Source of the DNA: Alphaproteobacteria bacterium
Lineage (GTDB): Bacteria; Pseudomonadota; Alphaproteobacteria; Micavibrionales; Micavibrionaceae
Assembly: GCA_024275825.1 (NCBI GenBank)
Contig: JAJRYK010000020.1
Location: 1-64,000 of the forward strand
Length of the DNA: 64,000 nucleotides
Reading direction: 5' to 3'
Part shown: positions 49,478-60,951 of the stretch, piece after piece
How positions within the stretch are numbered: position 1 is the stretch's first letter
Layout: each line of letters begins with the position of its first letter
The notes under the pieces: model-generated
The model's input: the letters and a program-made list of their open reading frames with translations, nothing else
What the model was told of the DNA's origin: nothing
Databases searched by the model: none
Made by a program: the position numbers and the translations under genes

Positions 49478-49637
49478 AACCGCAGATAAACGCTGATTAC
49501 GCGGATAAAGCTTTTCCAATACTGTCATCCCGAGCGAAGCCGAGGGATTTGCCCCGGGCAAAACCTTGATCAGATCCCTCGGCTTCGCTCGGGATGACAA
49601 CAAAAATAATCTGCGTAATCTGCGTTCATCTGCGGTT
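49478..49637. repeat. Nested inverted-repeat element (CGCAGAT arms, REP-like core)
   Basis: Outer arms of about 31 bases start AACCGCAGAT at 49478 and end in its complement at 49637. They match except at about four positions and are themselves built of degenerate GCAGAT/GCTGAT units. Inside lie perfect 26-base arms (49523-49548 and 49574-49599, starting TGTCATCCCGAGC), and at the centre a smaller palindrome around CCCCGGG. No ORF fits. The element lies between the hybrid kinase and asd. Confidence 0.85.
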
Positions 49638-49716
49638 TTTATATTTCTATGCGTTGCATAAAACGGCCCATCTATGTATGGTCTTAAGCTTTACTGCATA
49701 TCATAAGGATAAAATC

Positions 49717-50730
49717 ATGGGCTATAAAGTTGCCGTTGTGGGCGCGACCGGAAATGTGGGCGCGGAGATACTTAAAATTCTGGATGAGCGCAATTTTCCC
49801 GCCGATGATGTTGTGGCGCTGGCCTCTGCGCGTTCGGTAGGGCAGGAGGTTTCGTATGGTGATCAGGATCTAAAGGTTCTGGATCTGGCCACCTATGATT
49901 TCGCTGGCACGGATATCGTGCTGTCTTCGCCCGGCGGTAAGGTTTCAGCAAAATATTCGCCAAAGGCCGCGGCGGCGGGCGCGATCGTGATTGATAATAC
50001 CAGCCATTTTCGCATGGACCCCGACGTGCCCCTGATCGTGCCAGAGGTTAACCCGCACGCGATTAACGACATCAAGCGCGGCATCATCGCCAACCCAAAT
50101 TGCTCCACCATTCAAATGGTTGTGGCGCTAAAGCCTATTCATGAGGCTGCGGGCATCAAGCGCGTGGTCGTGTCCACCTATCAATCCGTCTCCGGCTCCG
50201 GCAAGGGCGCGATGGACGAGCTGTTTAATCAGACCAAGGGCGTGTATATGAACAAGGCCGCTAACCCGGTTGAATACCCAAAGCAAATCGCCTTTAACGT
50301 GATCCCGCAAATTGATGTGTTCATGGATGATGGCATGACAAAAGAAGAGTGGAAAATGGTCGCCGAAACGAAAAAGATTTTGGACCCAGCCATTAAAGTC
50401 TGCGCCAATTGCGTGCGCGTCCCCGTCTTTGTCGGCCATAGCGAGATGATCAATATAGAGCTGGAGCGTGAATTAAGCGCCGCCGATGCCAAACAGCTCT
50501 GGCGTGATTTTGAAGGCATTACGGTTGTGGATCTAGAGCACGAAGACCTCGAATACGTCACCCCAATGGAAGTGCAGGGCGAGGACGATGTCTATATCTC
50601 CCGCATCCGCGAAGACATCACGGTCGAAAACGGCCTGAATTTCTGGTGCGTCTCGGATAACCTACGCAAAGGCGCAGCGCTCAACACTGTGCAGATTGCG
50701 GAGCTGTTGGTTGAAAAGAAGTTGAAGTAG
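49717..50730 (+). CDS. asd: Aspartate-semialdehyde dehydrogenase
   Basis: Asd reduces aspartyl phosphate to the semialdehyde, the branch point to Lys/DAP, Thr and Met. The 337-aa product has the NADP-binding G-A-T-G-N-V-G, the catalytic Cys in N-P-N-C-S-T-I, and S-V-S-G-S-G-K-G. The start at 49717 has AAGGA eight bases upstream; the longer open frame runs into the repeat and is rejected. Confidence 0.97.
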   Translation: MGYKVAVVGATGNVGAEILKILDERNFPADDVVALASARSVGQEVSYGDQDLKVLDLATYDFAGTDIVLSSPGGKVSAKYSPKAAAAGAIVIDNTSHFRMDPDVPLIVPEVNPHAINDIKRGIIANPNCSTIQMVVALKPIHEAAGIKRVVVSTYQSVSGSGKGAMDELFNQTKGVYMNKAANPVEYPKQIAFNVIPQIDVFMDDGMTKEEWKMVAETKKILDPAIKVCANCVRVPVFVGHSEMINIELERELSAADAKQLWRDFEGITVVDLEHEDLEYVTPMEVQGEDDVYISRIREDITVENGLNFWCVSDNLRKGAALNTVQIAELLVEKKLK

Positions 50731-52433: not shown

Positions 52434-52841
52434 ATGCATATGAAATGGGATGATCACGGGATGAAAACACCGCTGGCGCGGGCCAAGGGGCTTGGCGCAG
52501 CGCGTGGCTGCGTTGAAAACTGGATAAAATTGCGTGTAACGGCGATTGGTAATGCTATTCTCGCGATTTGGTTTTTCTGGTTTTTGAGCGGGGTTATCGG
52601 CGCGAGCCATGCAGATTTCACAGCTGCGCTGGCCGATCCGCGTAATGCAATTCCTATGATCTTGCTGATTATTTCTATGCTTATTCATGCGATGCTCGGC
52701 GTGCGTGAGATTGTTGAAGATTATTTCCACAATGAATTCTTCAAAATATCAAAGCTGGTCGGCATGTATTTATGTTTCTTTGCCCTTGGCGTGGCCAGCG
52801 TGTTTAGTGTTTTGAAAATAGCGTTTACAGGCGGGTTATAG
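52434..52841 (+). CDS. sdhD: Succinate dehydrogenase membrane anchor subunit
   Basis: The 135-aa product with three spans contains R-V-T-A-I-G-N-A (quinone side) and the haem/anchor region H-A-M-L-G-V-R-E-I-V-E-D-Y. The start at 52434 gives a short cytoplasmic head; the ATG at 52461 (M-K-T-P-L-A-R-A) is an alternative. sdhA should follow directly, but a repeat-bounded cassette lies between. Confidence 0.92.
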   Translation: MHMKWDDHGMKTPLARAKGLGAARGCVENWIKLRVTAIGNAILAIWFFWFLSGVIGASHADFTAALADPRNAIPMILLIISMLIHAMLGVREIVEDYFHNEFFKISKLVGMYLCFFALGVASVFSVLKIAFTGGL

Positions 52842-52845
52842 GCGC

Positions 52846-53289
52846 ATGGGTATTTCACCACAAAGACTCAAAGATCACAAAGAATCACAAAGAAAGTTTT
52901 CGAATGTATCGTCTTTGGAGCGTGAAAATCCTGTCTCTAAGGTGATTGTAGATTGTGCTTTTAAGGTTCATACAACATTGGGTCCGGGCTTGTTGGAGAG
53001 CGCTTATGAAGAGTGCATGGAAAAGGAATTTATAAAAAGAGGCATTCATTATAAACGTCAGTATGAAATGCCCATTTATTATGATGGGGAGCGTTTAAAG
53101 ACCCCGTACCGTGTTGATTTTCTGGTTCAGGATTTGGTGATTGTTGAATTGAAGGCCGTAGAAAGGCTTGTGCCAATTCATGAGGCCCAGACGTTAACAT
53201 ATCTAAAACTTTCTAATTATCATTTAGCACTTTTAATTAATTTTAGTGCGCCATTGATTAAGAATGGCATTAAACGTTTTGTAATATAA
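52846..53289 (+). CDS. GxxExxY-family PD-(D/E)XK nuclease-like protein
   Basis: The 147-aa product carries the family signature G-P-G-L-L-E-S-A-Y and the nuclease-fold core Y-R-V-D-F ... V-I-V-E-L-K-A (D, then E-x-K). The biological role of the family is unknown. The frame from ATG 52846 translates the left repeat arm; the family-like part starts at about the TTG at 52915 (L-E-R-E-N-P-V). The gene is AT-rich compared with sdhD and sdhA and is bounded by inverted repeats, which suggests that it moved in as a unit. Confidence 0.8.
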   Translation: MGISPQRLKDHKESQRKFSNVSSLERENPVSKVIVDCAFKVHTTLGPGLLESAYEECMEKEFIKRGIHYKRQYEMPIYYDGERLKTPYRVDFLVQDLVIVELKAVERLVPIHEAQTLTYLKLSNYHLALLINFSAPLIKNGIKRFVI

Positions 53290-53332
53290 AAACTTCGAGA
53301 ACCTTTGTGTTCTTTGAGTCTTTGTGGTGAAA
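52853..53332. mobile_element. Cassette bounded by 30-bp inverted repeats, carrying the GxxExxY gene
   Basis: The left arm (52853-52882) starts TTTCACCACAAAGACTC and the right arm (53303-53332) is its inverse complement with 29 of 30 bases matching. Both arms consist of degenerate CAAAGA units. The 480-bp unit fills the sdhD-sdhA gap exactly, ending 14 bases before the sdhA ATG. No target duplication was clearly seen, so mobility is inferred. Confidence 0.6.
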
Positions 53333-53346
53333 AAAAAGGATAAAAA

Positions 53347-55152
53347 ATGACCCAGTCTTACGACATTATTGATCACGAATTCGACGTTCTCGTCGTTGGC
53401 GCTGGCGGCGCGGGTTTGCGCGCCGGGTTTGGGTGCGCTGAAAAGGGGCTGCATACCGCATTTTTGTCCAAGGTCTTCCCAACGCGCTCGCATACCGTTG
53501 CGGCGCAGGGCGGGATATCGGCCTCGCTTGGCAATATGGGGGAGGATGATTGGCGCTTCCACATGTATGACACGGTGAAGGGCTCGGACTGGCTGGGCGA
53601 TCAGGACGCAATTGAATATATGTGCCGGGAGGCCGTTCCGGCGATTATTGAGCTGGAGCATTACGGCGTACCGTTTAGCCGCACCGCGGCGGGCAAGATT
53701 TACCAGCGCGCCTTTGGCGGCATGACCACCCATTACGGCAAGGGCACGGCGCAGCGTACATGCGCCGCGGCTGACCGTACGGGCCATGCGATTTTGCATA
53801 CGCTTTACACGCAGGCGCTGCGGCACAAGGCGGAGTTTTTCATTGAATATATCGCGCTCGATTTGATCATGAGCGATGACGGGCAGTGCCTTGGCGTGAT
53901 GGCGTGGGATATGGATAGCGGCACGCTGCACCGTTTCCGCGCGCATCAAACGATTTTGGCAACCGGCGGGTATGGCCGGGCATATTTCTCCTGCACCAGC
54001 GCCCATACTTGCACGGGTGATGGAAACGCGATGGTATTGCGCGCGGGCATTCCGCTGCAGGATATGGAGTTCACGCAGTTCCACCCGACGGGCATTTATG
54101 GCGCGGGCTGTTTGATTACCGAAGGCGTGCGCGGGGAGGGCGGGTATCTGACCAATAGCGAGGGCGAGCGCTTTATGGAGCGCTATGCGCCCAGCGCAAA
54201 GGATCTGGCCAGCCGCGATGTTGTCTCTCGATCCATGACCGTTGAAATTAATGAGGGACGCGGCGTTGGCGCGAATGCCGACCACATTCACCTCAATCTT
54301 ATGCATCTCGATCCCGATATTATTCATGAGCGCTTGCCCGGCATTGCCGAGAGCGCGCGCATTTTCGCCGGCGTTGATGTAACGAAGCAGCCTATCCCGG
54401 TTCTGCCGACCGTGCATTATAATATGGGCGGCATTCAGACCAATTATAAAACCGAAGTCATTAACCCGACAGCAAAAGACCCAAACGCCATCGTGCCGGG
54501 CTTAATGGCGATTGGGGAGGCCGCATGCGTGTCCGTGCATGGGGCGAACCGTCTTGGCTCTAACTCGCTGCTTGATCTGGTGGTGTTTGGCCGCGCGGCG
54601 GCTATTCGCGCTGCGGAAACCGTAACCCCCGGCGCGAAGCACAGGCCGTTTGGCAAGGATGACGGCTCTAAAGCCATTGCGCGCTTTGACCATTACCGTA
54701 ATGTGAAGGGCGACACCTCCACGGCTGAGCTGCGCGGGTCGATGCAGCGCACGATGCAGGATCACGCTGCCGTGTTCCGCACCGGTGACGTGCTTAATGA
54801 GGGCGTTGTGAAGATTGATAAATGCTTTGCCAGCAAGGGCAATCTAGGCATTACCGACCGTTCCTTGATATTTAATACGGACTTGGTCGAAACGCTGGAG
54901 CTGGATAATCTGCTCTCGCAAGCCGTGGTATCAATGCATTCCGCCGCCGCTCGCGAAGAATCCCGCGGTGCGCACGCCCGCGAAGATTTCCCCGACCGCG
55001 ACGACAAAAAATGGATGCACCACACCGTTAGCTGGATTACCGACTCCTTAGATGGCAAAGGGGGCAAAGTCAAACTCGGCGCTCGCCCGGTGATCATGAA
55101 AACGCTTACTGATGAAGTTGAGGTGTTTCCGCCAAAGGCGCGGGTTTATTAG
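53347..55152 (+). CDS. sdhA: Succinate dehydrogenase flavoprotein subunit
   Basis: The 601-aa FAD subunit oxidises succinate. Seen: the dinucleotide motif V-V-G-A-G-G-A-G-L near residue 15, S-H-T-V-A-A-Q-G-G (covalent FAD His region), the substrate loop H-P-T-G-I-Y-G, and R-G-E-G-G-Y-L. The long minus-strand frame across it is an antisense shadow. The last 4 bases overlap the convergent hypothetical gene; sdhB is not adjacent. Confidence 0.98.
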
Positions 55153-60785: not shown

Positions 60786-60951
60786 AACCACTAAGGGCAC
60801 TAAGCGTTTTGTACTTAACTGTCATTCCGAGCATATGCGAGGAACCTTAGCGAGTTTCACTAGGGAAAGATCTCTCGTCGCGCAGCCTGCCCCCGTGAAG
60901 GCGGGGGCTCTGCCGAGATGACGGGTAGAACGCTTAGTGCCCTTAGTGGTT
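60786..60951. repeat. Inverted-repeat element (CACTAAG arms, hairpin core)
   Basis: Perfect 21-base arms start AACCACTAAGGGCACTAAG at 60786 and end with the complement at 60951; the match extends about 4 bases inward with one mismatch. The core begins CTGTCATTCCGAGC, holds a GC-rich hairpin (CCCCCG ... CGGGGG at about 60889-60907) and ends with G-A-T-G-A-C. No gene fits. It sits between nadC and nadA. Confidence 0.8.

Follow-up and report, generated by a model that had tools for sequence, protein, structure and literature searches.

Between sdhD and sdhA of an alphaproteobacterial genome lies a small gene enclosed by long inverted repeats, which raises the question of whether gene and repeats form one element and, if so, of what kind. 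We analysed the locus within a window of 64,000 nt (the whole stretch of DNA studied here), where the gene's neighbours are sdhC, sdhD and sdhA. A sequence-only reading had described near-perfect 30-bp inverted repeats, built of CAAAGA units, around a PD-(D/E)XK-like GxxExxY gene at this position, and had proposed a small mobile element made of a nuclease gene and its own arms. Family matches of the two flanking genes confirmed the position (Table 1). The protein scores 148 bits against TIGR04256 (GxxExxY; curated cut-off 35) and 144 bits against PF13366 PDDEXK_3 (cut-off 22), the latter being the only domain encoded in the element, and its structure model also matches nuclease folds. The inverted repeats were likewise upheld: positions 52853-52882 pair with 53303-53332, 30 bp each, at 29 of 30 positions, with a score of 27 against a best chance score of 14 in 200 Markov sequences of 1000 nt.

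The repeat unit itself is better written as the 7-nt word CNCNAAG, with C1, C3, A5, A6 and G7 fixed. Each arm has four such units, and linkers of 1, 2 and 3 nt place them at spacings of 8, 9 and 10. Counting the fourth unit, the arms extend to 52892 and 53293 and pair at 35 of 40 positions. The GxxExxY ATG at 52846 is 5 nt past the sdhD stop at 52841; the reading frame thus begins just outside the left arm and reads through it. No Rfam match was found near the element. Elsewhere in the window, only two long inverted repeats follow this grammar, and both are gene-less hairpins. The first lies directly upstream of asd, and the listed asd frame (49594-50730) begins inside the hairpin, so the first ~40 residues of that frame are probably not real.

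Table 1. Features of the sdh-locus element, its neighbours and the gene-less hairpins of the window.
Feature	Position	Strand	Description
sdhD, upstream neighbour	52437..52841	+	TIGR02968
GxxExxY gene, 147-aa frame	52846..53289	+	TIGR04256/PF13366 match
Nuclease domain of GxxExxY gene	52936-53283	+	
Left arm	52853..52892	+	TTTCAC, then 4 units; linkers 1, 2, 3 nt
Left-arm units	52859-52865, 52867-52873, 52876-52882, 52886-52892		CACAAAG, CTCAAAG, CACAAAG, CACAAAG, respectively
Right arm, inverted	53293..53332	-	4 units; linkers 1, 2, 3 nt
Right-arm units	53320-53326, 53312-53318, 53303-53309, 53293-53299		CACAAAG, CTCAAAG, CACAAAG, CTCGAAG, respectively
sdhA, downstream neighbour	53347..55152	+	TIGR01816
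Gene-less hairpin	49478..49637		CGCAGAT flavour; TGTCATCCCGAG palindrome nested in loop
Gene-less hairpin	60786..60951		CACTAAG flavour; 23/23 arms; nested TGTCATTCCGAG-type palindrome

The conserved residues of the GxxExxY protein are G26xxE29xxY32, D69, E79xK81 and Q93xxxY97. A structure model of the window protein (mean pLDDT 96.4) has Cas4 SSO0001 as its closest solved fold (Z 9.1), followed by lambda-type exonucleases and other PD-(D/E)XK nucleases. Searching by sequence, we found no solved homologue; Pfam Cas4 matches were weak (43 of 82 members, best 1.3e-4), and phage endonuclease I matched in 2. The domain is minimal, at 125 aa, and no cysteine that could serve an Fe-S cluster is invariant or nearly invariant among the members. 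By this model the protein resembles a minimal QxxxY nuclease of Cas4/RecB-like type. One CRISPR Cas4 is reported to cleave both branched DNA and plasmids in cruciform form (PMC12538437), so a hairpin or cruciform would plausibly serve GxxExxY as a substrate too. We rejected assignment to an anti-phage system (no PADLOC match) and to a phage gene (no PHROGs match, with homologues on only 5 viral contigs of 2.9 million). Among the viral-contig homologues, L182, L183 and L185 have long inverted repeats of other repeated words, for example ACTTAAAATTT.

Where relatives have both genes readable, the sdhD-sdhA junction is mostly empty, measuring -10 to 44 nt, including that of the one congener; the gene is therefore not a constant, armless resident of this site. 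Junctions that are not short are occupied by an armed gene in decay (L021), a remnant with an internal deletion (L036) or unrelated genes. At the site in genome G042 (L043:1948-2313), a gene for a RusA-like Holliday-junction resolvase lies between CGCAAAG-type arm remnants. We considered RusA as a second regular cargo and rejected it as incidental, since 4 of 61 genomes have it and this site is the only one where it lies between arm remnants. A member of another genus (G004) carries the same CACAAAG 1-2-3 element directly upstream of sdhA (L056); its protein is 73% identical to that of the window, with dN 0.17 and saturated dS. The copy at sdh is therefore an old one, with purifying selection acting on its protein. 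Three related GxxExxY homologues at the sdhD-sdhA site (L028 in G045, L047 in G021 and L075 in G014) lack arms and no longer have the ExK residues. These cases suggest that arms are retained only alongside an active nuclease, and the three copies are possibly domesticated, catalytically dead forms.

The genome that carries the window (G000, 1.92 Mb) has five GxxExxY genes, all inside arms of this grammar, and no two of them share a flavour: CACAGAG (linkers 2,4), CACAAAG (1,2,3), CACTAAG (1,3), CGCAAAG and CGCAGAT (3,3). Identity among the five proteins is only 29-53%. The CACAAAG 1-2-3 arm pattern has 31 matches in this genome and the reversed control pattern has none; 464 kb of it contain 22 strong inverted repeats, of which about half, if not more, follow this grammar, against none in Markov sequence. 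Even rare spacings seen at the resident genes (1,2,3; 1,3; 2,4) recur in gene-less copies. When folded, these copies form stems of 30-40 bp with A/T-rich loops of ~20 nt, and these loops are mostly not internal deletions of a GxxExxY gene. Several loops enclose a nested palindrome of CATTCCGAG or CGTC type, or another array hairpin. Array-hairpin loops at L246, L248, L249 and L250 and in C13 and C16 of G000 repeatedly contain either CGTC-type REP palindromes or a further array hairpin, as though loops served as sites of insertion. Covariation across 13 hairpins gave 22 changed cells against 13.6 in shuffles, with inner linkers often unpaired, and selection for a perfect hairpin as the sole driver was rejected because the inner linkers pair so poorly.

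These hairpins bring to mind a form of homing, in which GxxExxY would cut empty hairpins of its own flavour and the gene would be copied into their loops by arm recombination, the hairpins themselves having arisen otherwise. The gene does occupy the place that a short loop takes in other copies, and loops often hold other palindromes or, at the sdh site of G042, the RusA-like gene. However, the genes within one genome are too different and too rare for recent loop-to-loop copying, and their flavours differ from gene to gene. We regard homing as very unlikely.

The same arm type was next sought at GxxExxY genes in general, using 113 loci with enough flank that came from the 80 best matches in 84,980 species genomes (a cross-phylum set of loci that is not a random sample), 5 viral loci and the family loci; many of the genomes are drafts. 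An ungapped detector with a reach of 250 nt found arms scoring at least 13 at 87 of the 113 loci, against 0 of 87 when the control flanks were displaced by 1 kb. Mismatched flanks scored as arms at 10 of 113 loci, as expected if the arm grammar is common to the loci. About 23% of the surveyed genes have no arms at this threshold, some of them being armed further out (L048, L051). Gene and arms are thus linked in hosts that include Planctomycetota, Verrucomicrobiota, Bacteroidota, Cyanobacteriota, Acidobacteriota, Chloroflexota and the archaeal Methanosarcinales. The elements end in (A/C)ACCRC with arrays of 7-nt units, their spacing codes include 1,1; 2,2; 2,3; 3,3 and 1,2,3, and the catalytic residues are kept in nearly all armed copies.

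Arms and protein also change together. Left and right linkers are identical in 135 of 141 comparisons (96 parsed arms), and unit flavour is matched too; since this spacing is the same in arms 400 bp apart and is kept as both change, something must be reading it. On the GxxExxY protein tree, which has few columns and many unresolved forks, the first linker requires 10 changes against 35.7 +/- 2.3 with shuffled labels (0 of 300 shuffles), and in the cross-phylum set alone 7 changes against 18.5. Host phylum fits the same tree poorly (30 changes against 37). Arms and gene have therefore stayed together over long periods and in passing between phyla, although linkage alone could give such congruence.

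Might the arms instead act as RNA? They could be stem-loops in polycistronic messages, serving RNase III processing or the tuning of expression as in intervening sequences (IVS) of 23S rRNA, with the gene as a passenger or a processor of RNA ends. Nearly all CACAAAG copies of G000 are intergenic, and most of them, including nearly all of the clear gene-less ones, lie between co-directional genes with short gaps; GxxExxY genes with co-directional neighbours are co-oriented with them in 57 cases and opposed in 4. The hairpins are strong and show some covariation, and the size and layout of the element resemble those of the Coxiella IVS (PMC4990558). What is conserved, however, is unit words and spacing, while linker pairing is often broken; the Cas4/RecB-like fold is typical of DNA nucleases, Rfam gave no match, and a role in RNA would leave both the dispersal and the matching of flavour to protein unexplained. 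We consider an RNA function unlikely.

Arms and gene also go together from genome to genome. In a phylum-wide sample of 199 genomes, with arm-rich defined as three or more arm matches, the gene is present in 24 of 34 arm-rich genomes against 6 of 165 others (Fisher p 1e-17), so that arms do not occur independently of GxxExxY genes. The richest family alone gives 22 of 31 against 0 of 8 (p 4e-4), and a reversed control arm pattern has 0 or 1 matches per genome almost everywhere. In G073, the left arm of the sole GxxExxY gene (L267) has linkers 2,3, as do 17 of the 18 listed arm matches, that arm included. In ten of the 34 arm-rich genomes the gene is not detectable, which would be expected if gene-less copies persist longer than the gene; an example is G051, which lacks the gene and shares the CACGAAT flavour with its gene-bearing sister G022. 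Genome G198 has 139 arm matches, many in tandem gene-less hairpins, and no detectable GxxExxY gene.

The sister genomes G022 and G051 also differ in which sites are occupied. An armed gene lies between leuC and leuD (named by reading of the flanks) in G022, and the same site in G051, ~88% identical, is a 40-nt intergenic region. Conversely, a gene-less CACGAAT element of G051 corresponds to a cleanly empty site in G022 (L248/L259), and another site is common to both (L251/L261). The elements are thus polymorphic for insertion. No target-site duplication was evident in the clean empty/occupied pair L259/L248, and the flanks of L217/L064 are too diverged to show one. Within 200 kb around sdh in G022 and G051 we found no elements, and G077 and G085, when compared, share one gene element and showed no site that is cleanly polymorphic.

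This pattern bears on whether the arms are operators, bound by GxxExxY or a partner that controls its own and other genes, with the gene-less copies as the regulon. The units do resemble protein-binding sites at fixed spacing, and copies lie upstream of operon genes. Yet the sites are not conserved between relatives and their presence or absence is clean, long inverted arms flanking a gene would be unusual for operators, and catalytic residues would hardly be so well kept in armed copies. We consider an operator function very unlikely.

Mobilisation by a different enzyme is a further alternative, in which a RAYT/TIRYT or IS transposase would move the arms in trans and GxxExxY would be cargo. 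Prokaryotes have REPs of CGTC and GTAG type as well as tyrosine transposases flanked by TIRs (PMC3733652), and a Y1 transposase is present in 20 of the 25 genomes tested. Against this, Y1 is absent from G022, G051, G002, G046 and G192, all of which have armed genes or many arm matches, and on this ground RAYT was rejected as the mobiliser. The inverted repeats found at genes of the class examined, Y1, are of other types, and a cargo role would not account for one nuclease family in matching arms across phyla. We judge mobilisation by another transposase to be quite unlikely.

The explanation we favour, and consider probable, is that the sdh copy is one gene-bearing member of a dispersed family of array-armed palindromes whose hairpins are spread by an arm-reading nuclease. 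The plan of such an element is two inverted arms of 2-4 units C-R-C-N-N-A-G/T at fixed spacing, with an outer end that is T-rich and then (A/C)ACC; most copies are gene-less hairpins and a few enclose one GxxExxY gene. We infer that GxxExxY would recognise the array of units in its own arms and would cut at or near the junction of arm and loop; the form recognised would probably be an extruded hairpin, a cruciform or DNA that is single-stranded while being replicated. Once released or primed, the hairpin would be repaired or copied, and this would put arms, usually gene-free, at new A/T-rich intergenic sites. The nuclease would work in trans on every hairpin of its own flavour, and its gene would remain single-copy, transcribed from a host operon and inherited vertically or by gene transfer, as RAYTs are for REPINs. 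Several observations weigh against this explanation: some surveyed genes have no arms, some arm-rich genomes have no detectable gene, gene-less loops are mostly not deletion derivatives of the gene, no clear target-site duplication was seen, and the protein tree is poorly resolved. Arms and gene could also have co-evolved through linkage alone, and the poor pairing of inner linkers means that the hairpin may matter less than the units. The small mobile element first proposed fits all findings in its outline, but the sdh copy is not a fresh insertion, as L056 in another genus attests, and the bulk of what looks mobile is gene-less; arm recognition and cutting would be the work of the putative nuclease.

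Because some arm-rich genomes have no GxxExxY gene, we also examined the 23S IVP family (PF05635). Inverted arrays flank 10 of 16 full-length genes for these four-helix bundles, against 1 of 15 in a control, and their words, such as GTGAGAT, GTTAGCA, GTTGGAAT and GAGTAGG, differ from GxxExxY units. The array-flanked genes (loci L325-L350 in G056, G183, G168, G201, G046, G036 and others) are free-standing, and a parallel element type built on this family may exist. More broadly, we see about an even chance that these elements form a transposon-like system of its own class, in which palindromes are spread in bacteria and archaea by a minimal, Cas4-like nuclease reading a spacing code in inverted 7-nt unit arrays, with the unrelated 23S IVP family building the same architecture from arrays of different words.

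GxxExxY genes occur widely among bacteria and archaea without an assigned role; the literature searched gave nothing on their function. That search, on repeat words, GxxExxY, PDDEXK_3 and array-like palindromes, with bioRxiv and subscription papers outside its scope, also returned no description of the association between gene and arms. Array-armed GxxExxY elements look like an undescribed kind of small mobile DNA, and the arms supply the family with a directly testable candidate substrate. If the favoured explanation is true, a large class of dispersed palindromes, seen until now as unexplained repeats, would be accounted for, and a selfish element would have a Cas4-like enzyme as its partner, a point relevant to the origin of Cas4 in mobile elements. 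In its agreement between arms and its fit to the protein tree, the spacing code offers an unusual natural record of how protein and DNA have co-evolved.

The elements share features with several known systems. Like MITEs and IS elements, they have terminal inverted repeats, gene-less copies and insertion polymorphism; they differ in that the element encodes no known transposase domain, no target duplication was evident in the clean pair, and the arms are internally repeated with element-specific spacing. The IVS of 23S rRNA with an S23 (IVP) gene is similar in having ~450 nt with one small ORF between stem-forming arms (~28 bp) in transcribed DNA, the Coxiella IVS having a length of 428-444 nt and a 28-bp stem that encloses a single small ORF (PMC4990558), whereas the element described here lies between sdhD and sdhA rather than in rRNA, encodes another protein fold and has arms that are arrays of units. 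Solo-Cas4 and MGE-Cas4 proteins resemble GxxExxY in the QxxxY motif, and the solved fold closest to the GxxExxY model is that of Cas4 SSO0001, but they differ from its minimal domain lacking invariant Fe-S cysteines, and GxxExxY (PF13366) is not named in the parts of the Cas4 phylogenomics study consulted (PMC5704561). The REPIN/RAYT system comes nearest. There, every RAYT occurs as one copy and is linked to a palindrome flavour of its own (PMC3116915), and both systems have dispersed intergenic palindromes, several flavours per genome, a distinct single-copy nuclease gene for each, and gene-less copies that outnumber the gene (PMC3116915). The likeness is one of working and not of membership: the enzyme here is PD-(D/E)XK and Cas4-like, not HUH/Y1, with Y1 absent from the five genomes named above; the repeats are inverted arrays of 7-nt units and not GTAG-tagged REP hairpins arranged as inverted doublets; and the gene is enclosed by the palindrome and undergoes wide transfer among phyla. 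Because the mobile-looking bulk is gene-less and the gene occurs in single, distinct copies, REPIN/RAYT and not a self-copying transposon is the closest working analogy.
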